Positions 13,707 through 37,409 of a DNA stretch of 64,000 bases are shown here, piece after piece. The notes under the pieces were generated by a model that was not told the origin of the DNA, ran no database searches, and was given only the letters and a program-made list of their open reading frames with translations. The stretch's first letter is position 1, and every line of letters starts with the position of its first letter. Source of the stretch: an uncultured Gammaproteobacteria bacterium (GTDB lineage: Bacteria; Pseudomonadota; Gammaproteobacteria; Pseudomonadales; Pseudohongiellaceae); NCBI GenBank assembly GCA_913060495.1, contig CAJXRP010000009.1:62001-126000 (forward strand), given 5' to 3'. A program made the translations under genes and the position numbers.

Positions 13707-13930
13707 GTAGAAATACCCTGGCGGTGGAATTTAAGAGGGACCGAATTGATGTGTGTTGCTGCTTGCAATGCCCTCTCGTAACGTCTTAATTTACCATTCA
13801 TTGGGGATAGAATAATCAGAGTAGTTCTATATTCTCTCGCATTCGGAATTCGAATGCCTTCTTCAAAATAAAAATAAAAGCTATATCGTGTCGTGCTTGA
13901 GCAATCGGTGTCAGAAACCAGGTCTGATTT

Positions 13931-14983
13931 TTATCGCAGCACATGTCGCTCTAACATCTGTCGTCTGACCACCGCACCGTAAACATTTCCATTGGCATCC
14001 ACGCCAACACCTTCGGCGCCTGAATGATCGTCTCGCAGGGGTTCCATGTCTTCGATGAATGCAGTCACTGTGCCGTCAATGGCTGAACCGATGCGAATAC
14101 CCTTTCTTATTCCCGTTAACTCACCCGCACCGGTGTCGGGTCCGGATTCCGAGTCGGCTACATAAATCGTGTCATCAGCAGTAATGAAGATACCGCTAGG
14201 GCGGCCGAACTGTCTCCATTCGTCGATAAAACCTCCATCCTGACGAAAAATTTGAATGCGATTGTTGTTTCTATCGCCAACAAACAAGCGTCCGCCGGAA
14301 TCCATCGCTATGGTATGCGGTTCGCTGAGTTCCCCTTGCCCTGAGCCTTCGCTTCCCCATTGTTTAATGAATCTTCCCTCAGACGAATAATGCACAATTC
14401 GATTATTTCTGCCGCCTCGATGGCTTTCTGCTATAAAGACGTCGCCGTTGTCAGGGTCAACAACAACGTCATTCGGATTGAAGAGTAGCCCCGGTGTTGA
14501 GCCGCCTTGCCCTCGTTGCCCGATTGTCATCAGAATCTCACCGTCGGAACTGAATTTGAAAACCTGATGGCCAATGCTACCGTTACTGCGAGCATCGGTG
14601 ACCCAAAGATTCCCTTGTGAGTCCACAGTGGCGCCATGGGGAAAAACAAACAGCCCTGCGCCAAAAGAATCCAGCAAATTGCCGTCATAGTCATATTTCA
14701 GAATTGGAGCTTCGCTGCGACCCTCACAAGAGTTATCAATGCAGCGATGGATGACATAGATGAATTGACCGTCCGGGGAAGGCTCCACGGCAGTCACTGC
14801 GGCCCATTCTGACCCTTCTGGTAGTTCGCCCCAATTCCGCCCTGTCTCATAGGGTTGCGGCAGATCATTGCGCACGCCGTGGGCTGTCTCGGGCGCCGAT
14901 GAGGTTTGGGCATGGACTTGTATCCCCCCAACTGCGATGAATAGCGATACCGAGAGTAGAGCGAGTATTTTTGTTGGTTGCAT
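13931..14983 (-). CDS. Exported NHL beta-propeller, peptidyl-alpha-hydroxyglycine alpha-amidating lyase (PAL)-like
   Basis: 350 residues with a signal peptide (to about 25, QVHAQ). The NHL repeats carry PAL-type signatures: F-P-H-G-A-T-V-D (His116), G-H-Q-V-F-K-F (His139), E-P-H-T-I-A-M-D (His223) and G-D-R-N-N-N-R-I-Q (Arg238). In animal PAL, His of PHG, PHS and a third PHD hold the zinc; the third position here reads G-A-E-G, so one ligand is missing. It is paralogous to the protein at 22236. It is divergent, 174 bp away, from a PHM-like copper monooxygenase, the enzyme PAL is fused to in animals. Whether it cleaves hydroxyglycine-like substrates is inference; many bacterial members are uncharacterised. 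Confidence 0.72.
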   Translation of the reverse strand: MQPTKILALLSVSLFIAVGGIQVHAQTSSAPETAHGVRNDLPQPYETGRNWGELPEGSEWAAVTAVEPSPDGQFIYVIHRCIDNSCEGRSEAPILKYDYDGNLLDSFGAGLFVFPHGATVDSQGNLWVTDARSNGSIGHQVFKFSSDGEILMTIGQRGQGGSTPGLLFNPNDVVVDPDNGDVFIAESHRGGRNNRIVHYSSEGRFIKQWGSEGSGQGELSEPHTIAMDSGGRLFVGDRNNNRIQIFRQDGGFIDEWRQFGRPSGIFITADDTIYVADSESGPDTGAGELTGIRKGIRIGSAIDGTVTAFIEDMEPLRDDHSGAEGVGVDANGNVYGAVVRRQMLERHVLR

Positions 14984-29323: not shown

Positions 29324-30505
29324 CTAAAGGGTTGGGGCCGAGCTATCGACTTTTTCATTGGCGTCGTGTTCGGAATTTTCCAATAACTCAAGATACCTGG
29401 CTAAATTACTATGCAGGTGACCAATCGCGGACTCAAATCGACCGAACCTATAGTGTGAGTTAGCACCAGAGCCAATGGCAGCCTGAATTTTACTTACTAC
29501 TTCTGCATCTTCCTTGTTGCCGGTATCTGAAAGAAAGGCTACGTCTTTCTTGGCGCGAGCCAGGTCTTCTGCAGCAGGAGCTGCCCCGTTCGGTATTGGC
29601 ATGGTAAGTTTATAACTGAAGTATCGTGTGCGTGTTGGTGATTCGGGCTCGGCGAAGGTTACATCGTAGTGCTGGGATAGTCGGGTAATAGAGGCAAAAG
29701 GGAAAATTCGGTTAACCAGTGTCACCATCCTGTTTAATGACAGGTTCTCTCGGGGTGCTTCGCGTAATTTTTCAATGCGCCTAAAAGGAAAGCAAACGCG
29801 AGAATTCGGTCCCTGCATTTCAACGACATTTAGGTTGTCATAACCATAAGGATAGAAGGACTCAGGGTGTGTAGGTTTGATGTGGTAGCCTTCTAATGTG
29901 CCCTCGGCTGTCAGTTTCCAATTAATGTCGTCCACCGATTCATTTGAGTCAAACAGTATCTGTTCATCGGTCAGCAGTTCCGGTAGTGATTCTAGTGCGC
30001 CCAATCCAATCGGCTCGTCTTGCGTAATAAACACCAAACCATTTTGAATATTGACGCTATGAACTGGTACCAAGCCACTGCTGTCTTTGTCTAGGTCAGG
30101 AAAACCATTTTCGTGTGGTACGTATTCAAGCCGACCATCTAAACGGTATGCCCAACCATGGTAAGTGCAGCGAAATATTTTTGTACAACCGGAGCCCTCA
30201 GCTAATTGCATACCACGATGCCGGCAGGCATTGCGAAATGCTCTAATAGTTCCTTCAAGATCTCGGACTACGACGATCGGGACACCGGCGGAAGCACGCG
30301 CCACATAGGAACCAAGTTCGGGCAAAGCGGCGACTGGGCAGAAAGGAATTGGTAAGCGCCGCATGAGCCGCCTTTCTGCATCAAAGCGCGATTGTGAGCT
30401 GTAGTTTTGAACCGGCTCATACCAGTCTTCTTCACCGAGATCAGTTGTGCCCTGGTCAATATGGTTGAGAATATGGTCAAGAAGTTCTGCGTCATTTCGC
30501 ATCAA
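29324..30505 (-). CDS. Rieske aromatic-ring-hydroxylating oxygenase, alpha subunit
   Basis: 393 residues. The Rieske 2Fe-2S site is C-R-H at 94-96 and C-T-Y-H at 113-116 (spacing C-x-H-x16-C-x2-H). The mononuclear iron site includes E-G-Y-H-I-K-P-T-H with His208 and His213. The third ligand (Asp) is not certain from reading. The enzyme needs an external ferredoxin/reductase pair, which is not encoded nearby. It lies 102 bp downstream of a crotonase and belongs to the cluster that includes the UGSC selenoprotein. It probably hydroxylates or demethylates an aromatic or quaternary-amine-like substrate; I cannot choose. Confidence 0.87.
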   Translation of the reverse strand: MMRNDAELLDHILNHIDQGTTDLGEEDWYEPVQNYSSQSRFDAERRLMRRLPIPFCPVAALPELGSYVARASAGVPIVVVRDLEGTIRAFRNACRHRGMQLAEGSGCTKIFRCTYHGWAYRLDGRLEYVPHENGFPDLDKDSSGLVPVHSVNIQNGLVFITQDEPIGLGALESLPELLTDEQILFDSNESVDDINWKLTAEGTLEGYHIKPTHPESFYPYGYDNLNVVEMQGPNSRVCFPFRRIEKLREAPRENLSLNRMVTLVNRIFPFASITRLSQHYDVTFAEPESPTRTRYFSYKLTMPIPNGAAPAAEDLARAKKDVAFLSDTGNKEDAEVVSKIQAAIGSGANSHYRFGRFESAIGHLHSNLARYLELLENSEHDANEKVDSSAPTL

Positions 30506-30607: not shown

Positions 30608-31402
30608 CTAGCGACCTGTCCATTTCGGCTTGCGCTTCTCGATAAACGCAGCTCTTGCCTCTTTGCCGTCCTCGCTGTCGAAGGCAGCGGAAAGCGCTTG
30701 TAGTGCGGCTTCCGGAACGTCTTTGAAGGGCATATCTTCCATCTCGTACATCAAATCTCGTGTGCGTTTTAGTGCTAGAGGCGACATCTGGCAGAGTTTC
30801 AGCGCTAATTCTTCCGTAGCTCTGGCGAGTTCTTTAGCCGGTACAACACGAGTAATCAATCCTAGCTGATAGGCTTCCTGCGCGCTGATCGGTTCCCCAG
30901 TGAAGATCAGTTCTGCAGCGCGCATTCTCCCTATCAATCGCTGTAAGAACCAGACATGCATGCCGGGAGGACCGGCAAGATTCGGCACGCCCGGGTATCC
31001 AAAGTCGGCATCGTCGGCGGCGATAACCATGTCACAGGCGAAGGCCAGCGTGCAGGCGCCTTCTCTAACGTAACCATGCACAGCCGCAATAACTGGCATG
31101 GATAGTCCGCGAACTATCTTCAGTGTCTCTATGTAAAACAGCCGCAGAAACTGCTCCATGTCGGCGCTTTTGAATTGCATTAGATATTTCAGGTCGACGC
31201 CGGCAGAAAGCCCTTTCCCGGCTCCGCTTAAAATAAGCACCTTCGCGTTCTCATCGGCATCTGCAGTTCGCAGCGCGTGGTGATACTCCAGAGCAGACTC
31301 TTCATCAATTAGATTGAGTGGCGGCTTATCGAGTTCTATTCGCGCTATGCCTGACACGACTGAGTAGTTCAGAGTTTTGTAGCTGGTTTCAGTCACTGGC
31401 AC
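30608..31402 (-). CDS. Enoyl-CoA hydratase/isomerase superfamily protein lacking both hydratase glutamates
   Basis: 264 residues, a normal crotonase length. The oxyanion-hole segment G-L-S-A-G-V-D-L-K (64-72) and the G-Y-V-R-E-G-A-C-T-L-A-F-A-C-D helix are present. The residues corresponding to the two catalytic glutamates of rat enoyl-CoA hydratase (CELA and QPE motifs) are Thr118 (C-T-L-A) and Gly138 (Y-P-G). It should still bind an acyl-CoA, but ordinary hydration is unlikely. A decarboxylase, hydrolase, lyase or isomerase activity is possible, perhaps using Glu114. It sits between the selenoprotein gene (58 bp upstream) and the Rieske oxygenase, and may share their transcript. Confidence 0.83.
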   Translation of the reverse strand: MPVTETSYKTLNYSVVSGIARIELDKPPLNLIDEESALEYHHALRTADADENAKVLILSGAGKGLSAGVDLKYLMQFKSADMEQFLRLFYIETLKIVRGLSMPVIAAVHGYVREGACTLAFACDMVIAADDADFGYPGVPNLAGPPGMHVWFLQRLIGRMRAAELIFTGEPISAQEAYQLGLITRVVPAKELARATEELALKLCQMSPLALKRTRDLMYEMEDMPFKDVPEAALQALSAAFDSEDGKEARAAFIEKRKPKWTGR

Positions 31403-31459: not shown

Positions 31460-31981
31460 TTAAAGTAAAATTTGTGCATCGATAGCGGCCATGGTTTGCA
31501 ATGCTCGGGCCTCCAATTCTTTATCGGTAGCGCTGCTAACCGGATGGTCGATTATTGCGTAGTCGTAGTCCGGCATGCCCAATACCTTCGCCATGAGGTC
31601 GGCGGCGCTAACGAAGTTGCTGGTCATTACGCCAACGGCAGGTGTACCTAATCTCTCGCTGCTAATTGCGTCATGCAAACTGCACGACGAGCAGCTGCCT
31701 CAGTCGCCCAAGCCGGTGATAGCGAGATCCCAATTCTTTGCGTCGTCGATGATCTCATCTTCCGCCGGAGCACTGTAATTAGACTTTGTTCTTAAAATCA
31801 CCTCGGCCACTTGATAGCGCTCTCGAAGCAGTCTGTCCACATGGGCAAAGAATCCTGCTGTTCCTTCTTTACCGTTGGATATAAGCCCGACGGTCTTGCC
31901 TCTAAGGCTTTGTAATCGAGGCGCTGGCTCCAAGGTAACTACCAATGACTCATTGGTAGGATTGAGTACACGTATCGTCAT
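31460..31981 (-). CDS. UGSC-family selenoprotein, with in-frame TGA read as selenocysteine
   Basis: One frame runs from ATG 31981 to the stop at 31460-31462 if the TGA at 31702-31700 is read as Sec, giving 173 residues with Sec94. The residues around it are L-G-D-Sec-G-S-C-S-S-C, the U-G-S-C motif for which this family is named; homologues with Cys in place of Sec are known. Upstream, L-R-G-K-T-V-G-L-I-S-N-G-K is family-like. Downstream, the frame stays protein-like (H-D-A-I-S-S-E, G-V-M-T-S-N-F, I-D-H-P-V). A hairpin starting five bases after TGA fits a bacterial SECIS. An aggaaac site supports the start. A redox role is likely; the reaction is unknown. Its partner gene lies 49 bp upstream. 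Gene finders would split this gene. Confidence 0.85.
31658..31702 (-). promoter_or_regulatory. Bacterial SECIS-like hairpin just after the UGA codon
   Basis: Counting the U of UGA as 1, bases 14-21 pair with 27-34 as an uninterrupted 8-bp stem (one G-U pair) around the loop AGUUU. Bases 8-13 pair with 40-45 below, with a 5-nt bulge at 35-39. The loop has G23 and U24, the same positions as the SelB-contacting G and U in E. coli fdhF, whose apical stem-loop (UUGC-AGGUCU-GCAC) looks alike. The hairpin is inside the coding sequence, as in bacteria generally. Confidence 0.75.
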
Positions 31982-32030: not shown

Positions 32031-33104
32031 TTATTTCTTTTGGCTTGCCGCTGCCGGTTCGCAATCCACGCAGGCACCGATAGCCACTGTAACCGCTTGG
32101 CTCTTCGTTCCCAGCCAAGGTGGAATTATCGCCCCGAAACCGCCCGCCGGACCGCCTGCGGCAACCAGAAGAAGGTGATCCGGGCTGGGTAATGCGCAAT
32201 ATTCGGTATCGCCTTTATCACGAATTACCGAACCCTTGCCTACGGTTGACCATTCTGAGCGCTTAACGCGGGCTTTTTCGAATAGGTAGTTCGCAATCTC
32301 GTTTCTTCCCCAGCCGGCAGCGCGCATGTGCTCCCGATGTTGGGCGGGCATAACCACTGCGTAGTTTCCTGCCCATATGGAGTAGTTGCGCATATTGGCG
32401 CGCATCTCGGCTGCATAGGTGTCTAATATTTCTTCTGGCTTAGTGGTCCACTCATTCATGATTTGTCTAGGGGCGCAGGCCGCAAGTACTGTTACCGCCG
32501 ATGCTTCCTTGGGTATGTCCCGAGACTCTGCCAAGGATGGCCAGTTACTGTTCTCTTCGTCCTCCGCTATGCAGTAGCTGATCTTGCCAGGGTGGCCAAG
32601 CGTAGACCGATCAATGGCGCCAGGGCTAACTTGTAATATATTGATGAGAGCGAGCCGAATGGCTCTGCCTATAACAGAAGTAGCACGGTCCGAGCTTCCC
32701 AGTACATTGAAGTCACTGCGCGCACCAATCTCTTGTCTTATAGGCCCGTTCAAAATTACCAAGATCGCACAGCCGCCAGTGCTTGCCGTTGTTCCGTGTA
32801 ATAGGAATTCATCTTTAAGCATGGCCATCATCGCTGAGACCACGGCTGGGAAGTGCATCGGAAGACAGCCTGCCATAACAGCATTGATCGCTAATTTCTC
32901 GGCATCGATGGCCCGTTCGCGCACCGGCTCGATACCAATGATCTCATTAGCTGGCATGAGCACCCAGTCTAGACAGGCTTGCACCGCTTCGGGAGTGGGT
33001 GGGACGATAGGGAATCCATCTGTCCAGCCTCTGCTGTGATAAAACTCCTGCACATCGCCAGAGTCATCTATATCGAAATATTGAGAATTTAATGCACTAG
33101 TCAT
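32031..33104 (-). CDS. UGSC-associated protein with WTDG-P-x-V-P-P-T motif
   Basis: 357 residues, no signal peptide. The N-terminus has G-W-T-D-G-F-P-I-V-P-P-T (about 26-37), a signature of proteins encoded next to UGSC-family genes. The body has A-V-M-A-G-C-L-P-M-H-F-P, H-G-T-T-A-S-T-G-G-C-A, N-V-L-G-S-S-D-R-A, G-H-P-G-K-I-S-Y-C-I-A-E-D-E-E and A-A-G-G-P-A-G-G-F-G-A, then a C-terminal C-V-D-C pair (345/348). The several conserved Cys and the CxxC suggest redox chemistry or metal binding with the selenoprotein, but the reaction is not established. It is the first gene of the minus-strand run, and its 231-bp upstream gap is shared with a divergent gene. Confidence 0.72.
   Translation of the reverse strand: MTSALNSQYFDIDDSGDVQEFYHSRGWTDGFPIVPPTPEAVQACLDWVLMPANEIIGIEPVRERAIDAEKLAINAVMAGCLPMHFPAVVSAMMAMLKDEFLLHGTTASTGGCAILVILNGPIRQEIGARSDFNVLGSSDRATSVIGRAIRLALINILQVSPGAIDRSTLGHPGKISYCIAEDEENSNWPSLAESRDIPKEASAVTVLAACAPRQIMNEWTTKPEEILDTYAAEMRANMRNYSIWAGNYAVVMPAQHREHMRAAGWGRNEIANYLFEKARVKRSEWSTVGKGSVIRDKGDTEYCALPSPDHLLLVAAGGPAGGFGAIIPPWLGTKSQAVTVAIGACVDCEPAAASQKK

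Positions 33105-37372: not shown

Positions 37373-37409
<37 letters not shown>

Follow-up and report, generated by a model that had tools for sequence, protein, structure and literature searches.

UGSC selenoproteins are an established family, with 255 Sec and 21 Cys sequences given in the accessible text of one study (PMC2398784), and the family also appears in the accessible portions of several others (PMC5029168; PMC9402790; PMC9312934; PMC7435645; PMC7539508). In a marine survey, UGSC-containing proteins account for 8.2% of selenoprotein genes according to its available sections (PMC9402790), and proteins with the UGSC motif are among the selenoproteins that available excerpts report for some actinobacteria with a CUA tRNA-Sec (PMC5330540). 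NCBIfam now contains a model of the UGSC family (NF041046), and reviews, as far as their accessible sections go, list UGSC proteins without a function (PMC13188914). Glycine and proline reductase, with which we compare the family below, cleave C-N bonds, with Se-C cleavage coupled to a selenenylsulfide (PMC10298544, available text), and a relative of the glycine reductase protein GrdB has been proposed to cleave C-F bonds (PMC10838667, available text).

Here we examine a UGSC gene in a 64,000-nucleotide stretch of bacterial DNA (the window), part of a 45-contig assembly totalling 3.6 Mb. On the minus strand, a single frame of 173 codons runs from 31981 to 31460; it ends with a stop at 31460-31462 and is interrupted only by a TGA at 31702-31700 (codon 94), a layout that agrees with the original prediction of two in-phase minus-strand frames parted only by this triplet. 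Read through, the 173-aa product carries U94 in U-G-S-C-S-S-C, the Sec-G-S-C-x-x-C motif that had been claimed, and both the Pfam UGSC family (PF24696; 174.5 bits, cut-off 25) and the NCBIfam model "UGSC family (seleno)protein" (NF041046; 129.7 bits, cut-off 125) recognize it, confirming the proposed assignment of the split frame to a UGSC-family selenoprotein gene. Scored separately against PF24696, the segment before the TGA reaches 64.2 bits and the segment after it 71.2 bits, the latter upholding the claim that the downstream part has family-like content. Place 94 is Sec or Cys throughout 101 aligned members, which were picked as holding GSC. Since both halves match the Pfam family, homologues carry TGA at the same column and the stem that follows covaries, the pairing of the two frames goes beyond chance.

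To follow the Sec column across relatives, we surveyed genomes of the same order, of the same phylum and of a collection of named organisms. An HMM scan found UGSC proteins over cut-off in 21 of 244 genomes of the order, with 28 copies, 27 of them reported with one TGA and one without; in the 27 copies whose loci were read (the third copy of G076 was left out), the column holds TGA in 26, the window gene included, and TGT in one (L039). In the named collection there were at least 594 matching stretches, 581 of those listed encoding relatives, and TGA stands at the Sec column in each of the best 80 of these at least 581. The pattern used for this collection, GSC[TS][ST]CSLH, leaves the Sec codon out yet favours members with a conserved post-Sec segment and under-samples Cys members with another one (L039, L134), a bias from which the HMM scans are free. 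Five of 398 genomes of the phylum, our own included, encode UGSC; copies outside our genome have TGA in three cases (L131, L132, L135) and TGC at two places (L134, and L133, which is the same place as L136). The Cys copies that were read (L039, L133, L134) have TGT or TGC exactly where the others have TGA, and the TGA of the window aligns with the Sec/Cys column of its homologues, a result on which the original prediction had staked itself.

Matches below the cut-off in G092, G159, G222, G069 and G115 were excluded from the order count, and the frames at two of these five weak matches (L044, L045) look like FAD oxidoreductases. One Cys-type member with TGC (L133, genome G497) has a further in-frame TGA where its relatives have Trp in F-W-P, which may be due to decay, error or recoding. 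A subgroup of four (L031, L047, L048, L049) has the sequence G-H-U-G-S-C-T-T-G and carries the partner gene, described below, downstream rather than upstream.

The genome that holds the window encodes tRNA-Sec (66.9 bits; called 'SeC' by ARAGORN), selB (387 bits), selA (571.8 bits) and selD (286.1 bits), the last in a frame where a pyridine-nucleotide oxidoreductase domain precedes it and no inner stop occurs; a search for these four genes had been proposed beforehand, with the lack of selB or tRNA-Sec named as a refutation, and all were found. Across the order, selA is over its cut-off in 20 of 20 genomes with TGA-containing UGSC copies, compared with 13 of the 224 others, and the only UGSC genome without a selA match is the one with the TGT copy (G052; 75% complete). 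In addition to the window gene, the same genome has a second UGSC gene with TGA (L019 7918-9957, equal to contig C2:201917-203956) and a PrdB/GrdB-like gene on the minus strand (L137 1090-1983; contig C1 near 13848-14258) with TGA in U-P-V-C-H, whose PF07355 match ends directly before the TGA, the post-Sec part seemingly lying outside the Pfam model. Because these three genes each contain a TGA, the machinery appears to serve at least three Sec genes. A PrdB-like gene with TGA preceding P-N-C also accompanies UGSC in a SAR116 relative, close to the end of its locus (L103 1-600, minus strand).

A SECIS-type hairpin follows the TGA at 31658-31695 on the minus strand. The minimum-energy fold of the 50 bases from the UGA pairs bases 8-45 (-21.5 kcal/mol, z -2.53), with 4 of 200 shuffles as good, and the predicted hairpin from base 8 to 45 after UGA is recovered if the UGA itself is counted as bases 1-3. 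The expected AGUUU apical loop (31677-31681) is also formed, with G23 at 31680 and U24 at 31679, and the folding program additionally pairs A22 with U26 to give a GUU loop. Conservation and covariation delimit an upper stem at bases 16-32 (31687-31671). In 93 distinct 46-base sequences, pairs 17-31, 20-28 and 21-27 are formed without exception, pairs 18-30 and 19-29 in 89 and pair 16-32 in 82. G23 and U24 are present in 98 of 102 distinct sequences, and the remaining four make up the G-H-U-G-S-C-T-T-G subgroup, which breaks pairs 18-30 and 19-29 and whose sole folded member (L048) forms the hairpin in a shifted register; the single folds of L041 and L048 are no better than shuffles. In a covariation set of 25 sequences, hand-picked for variety from 108 Sec sequences with the pair-breaking subgroup left out, the six-pair upper stem is formed in 98% of cells and two stem pairs are changed on both sides, none of 500 shuffles reaches any of five pairing or covariation measures, and slid versions of the stem fare far worse. 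By these comparisons the upper stem is kept through compensatory changes.

The codons beyond the Sec show a constraint on their choice as well: all 94 Cys codons at position 100 are TGC, against 54 TGC and 48 TGT at Cys97 (third base, p 3e-17 if the sequences are treated as independent), and AGT encodes Ser101 in 94 of the 102 distinct sequences, all of these counts, like those for the hairpin, being made without correction for relatedness. The likeness claimed to the E. coli fdhF SECIS held for the loop and the spacing, the G23/U24 apical loop lying at the same distance from the UGA in both, but it failed for the bulged U17, which is part of the E. coli element and is absent from the window, where base 17 is a paired C; nor is the lower stem of the window hairpin kept in the UGSC family.

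A standard reading of the window gives two short frames, as would a decayed pseudogene in which a nonsense mutation or sequencing error had left the TGA and the gene had been lost. The chance of this is very small, given that the same codon is TGA in all of the best 80 named relatives and in the second copy of the same genome, that the downstream half scores in the family on its own, that the hairpin covaries and that the Sec machinery is complete; on these grounds the earlier view that decay was unlikely has been vindicated. Because of the family match, the Sec machinery, the TGA column and the compensatory changes in the hairpin, 31981-31460 is almost certainly a genuine selenocysteine gene, a new member of a family already known. 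Codon 94 is, as far as sequence comparison can tell, a UGA decoded by SelB-delivered tRNA-Sec guided by the downstream hairpin.

Upstream of the UGSC gene by 49 bp lies a partner gene (32031-33104, minus strand) encoding an orphan protein of 357 aa, which had no match in Pfam, NCBIfam and PADLOC searches and no credible relative in a PDB sequence search. The partner profile found 28 copies in 21 of the 244 order genomes, exactly the 21 that bear UGSC. Each of the 27 loci examined in the order has a partner copy: 20 have it upstream in the same orientation as UGSC, six have it downstream, and in one (L023) it lies on the opposite strand. Among the best 80 of at least 581 named-genome relatives, 69 carry the partner upstream and in the same orientation, at a distance of 1.1 and 2.6 kb in two of them (L081, L084); the other 11 comprise five loci with UGSC less than 1 kb from a contig end and six from Acidobacteriota (phylum checked for three names), in which the partner was not found beside the UGSC gene. 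The partner of the second UGSC copy (L019) has a thioredoxin-like N-terminal part with CPTC, and 15 of the 27 partner copies of the order have a similar extra part, in 11 of which C-x-x-C is visible (CPTC in ten, CATC in one), the other four being cut or unaligned there. Pfam and NCBIfam return only weak thioredoxin-like matches for this part (best E 0.002), and the extension is likely thioredoxin-like. Positions that the partner proteins conserve include D29, G30, K70, C80, T109, R147, K174, C178 and E181. UGSC and partner form one frame in L046; this single frame and the partner gene are consistent with the UGSC/Unknown_1 fusion reported in the accessible text of a previous survey (PMC2398784), and we infer that Unknown_1 is the partner gene. 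From their co-occurrence, the UGSC protein and the partner most likely act as one two-subunit enzyme.

Downstream of the UGSC gene are a crotonase-fold (enoyl-CoA hydratase/isomerase) gene (30608-31402, minus strand; PF00378, 162.2 bits) and, further on, the alpha subunit of a Rieske-type ring-hydroxylating oxygenase (29324-30505, minus strand; PF00848, PF00355). The crotonase has a strong match at the corresponding place in four of the best 80 of at least 581 relatives and is a weak functional clue because only the nearest relatives keep it, and for the Rieske oxygenase the frames of the 80 loci gave no match at E 1e-20. A reading of function from these two genes was dropped because the crotonase is kept in those four loci only. 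The presence of a Rieske oxygenase two genes off suggests an aerobic setting. Two of the UGSC loci bear strain names, Rhodopila globiformis DSM 161 (L081) and Enhydrobacter aerosaccus ATCC 27094 (L099), and therefore carriers of the family are in culture. Elsewhere in the window, a (CT)16 microsatellite occupies 37374-37405 of the plus strand.

To place the UGSC protein among known Sec enzymes, we aligned its profile with the Sec domain of GrdB/PrdB, represented by the 8 of 13 loci in which the Sec motif was found by pattern, with PF07355 and TIGR04483 as the families for testing membership. The hhalign score is 49.6 (P 6.5e-7) over 93 columns with the Sec columns matched, and Sec, an E-x-x-G-x-P element and an H-P element fall in register; 60 shuffles reach at most 22.1 and 60 shuffles that keep the motif at most 28.7. 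With the motif masked, the pooled GrdB/PrdB set still scores 34.0 with the register unchanged, and none of 120 shuffles exceeds 19.9; the masked comparison with GrdB alone, or with PrdB-like proteins alone, is at noise level. An HMM of two GrdB sequences ranked 48 UGSC proteins consecutively before the first decoy, a ranking that we did not take to prove homology, since it is lost once the motif is masked. These profile comparisons, which stand above shuffled and decoy controls, point to a link of the UGSC Sec domain with that of GrdB/PrdB, much of the signal being the UGxCxxC motif. We found no such link in the accessible text on UGSC of the selenium papers cited above, and both it and the rule that UGSC and partner co-occur are new to us.

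The UGSC protein may also be viewed as a thioredoxin-fold protein, as a paper has suggested, given its U-x-x-C motif, the thioredoxin-like part on many partner proteins and the statement, in the accessible text of another marine survey, that most of its Sec families are thiol oxidoreductase homologues or thioredoxin-like (PMC2398784). The AlphaFold2 model (pLDDT 87.4, pTM 0.83), however, has five successive strand-helix units, which is not the thioredoxin order, and places the Sec in the poorly modelled loop (mean pLDDT 62, residues 91-100) that joins strand 3 to the next helix, and the 50 structural matches listed are receiver, TIR, PurE, lumazine-synthase and other alpha/beta proteins, absence from this list excluding nothing. 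A Rossmann-like alpha/beta fold is thus predicted by the model, and a thioredoxin fold seems unlikely to us. Another role, in which the protein handles selenium or metal, its Sec serving to bind a soft metal or to supply the Sec machinery with selenium, would fit the four relatives in which the gene adjoins selA (L034, L035, L037 and L038, in G224, G204, G044 and G183; 84-108 bases between matches), but 13 of the 33 selA-bearing genomes of the order lack UGSC, and the genome with the Cys copy, in which selA was not found (G052), keeps both UGSC and partner. We consider this role improbable.

The reading we prefer, held with somewhat less than even confidence, is that the UGSC protein is a GrdB/PrdB-like half-enzyme that would cut C-N, C-S or C-halogen bonds of an organic compound. 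The two proteins would form one enzyme in which the partner holds a small substrate, the Sec selenolate would attack a polarised carbon-heteroatom bond of that substrate, as in GrdB/PrdB, and the resulting Se-C or Se-S intermediate would be resolved by the motif Cys and a thioredoxin-like donor, probably the part fused to the N-terminus of many partner proteins. In favour of such a selenolate mechanism are the profile link and the register of the three elements, the thioredoxin-like part of the partner, and the C-N cleavage known for glycine and proline reductase together with the C-F cleavage proposed for a GrdB relative (PMC10298544; PMC10838667; accessible text of both). UGSC members also have Sec over Cys nearly always, as the available text of one paper notes for GrdA (PMC1088965). 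Against it, the partner resembles neither GrdE nor the GrdB N-terminal domain, the profile signal is partly motif and the masked two-sequence GrdB profile no longer puts UGSC on top, conserved substrate-specific neighbours were not found among the loci examined, six Acidobacteriota loci have no partner found beside the gene, and the Sec loop of the model is of low confidence. A constant orphan companion within one order and a tie to GrdB/PrdB, not to thioredoxin, would recast a family listed without a function as a two-protein enzyme that is open to testing.

Compared with the described UGSC family (PF24696, NF041046), the window gene shows no essential difference, passing both curated cut-offs with its Sec in U-G-S-C. 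The differences from GrdB, selenoprotein B of glycine reductase (PF07355), and from PrdB of D-proline reductase are larger: the UGSC protein is a single domain of 173 aa without the GrdB N-terminal domain, which neither the UGSC profile nor the partner profile matched, and the partner is not GrdE-like, scoring 14.5, below shuffles, against two GrdE proteins (PF09338). Both groups nevertheless have the Sec in UGxCxxC, followed by an E-x-x-G/M-P element and, about 50 residues on, an H-P motif. Taken together, we suggest, as a tentative and rather doubtful possibility, that UGSC and its orphan partner constitute a novel Sec enzyme of two subunits, driven by thioredoxin, that would reductively cleave a carbon-heteroatom bond. 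Such an enzyme would have the Sec domain in common with GrdB/PrdB, let the partner stand in for both the pyruvoyl subunit and the N-terminal domain of GrdB, and work outside the strict anaerobes from which glycine and proline reductase are known.
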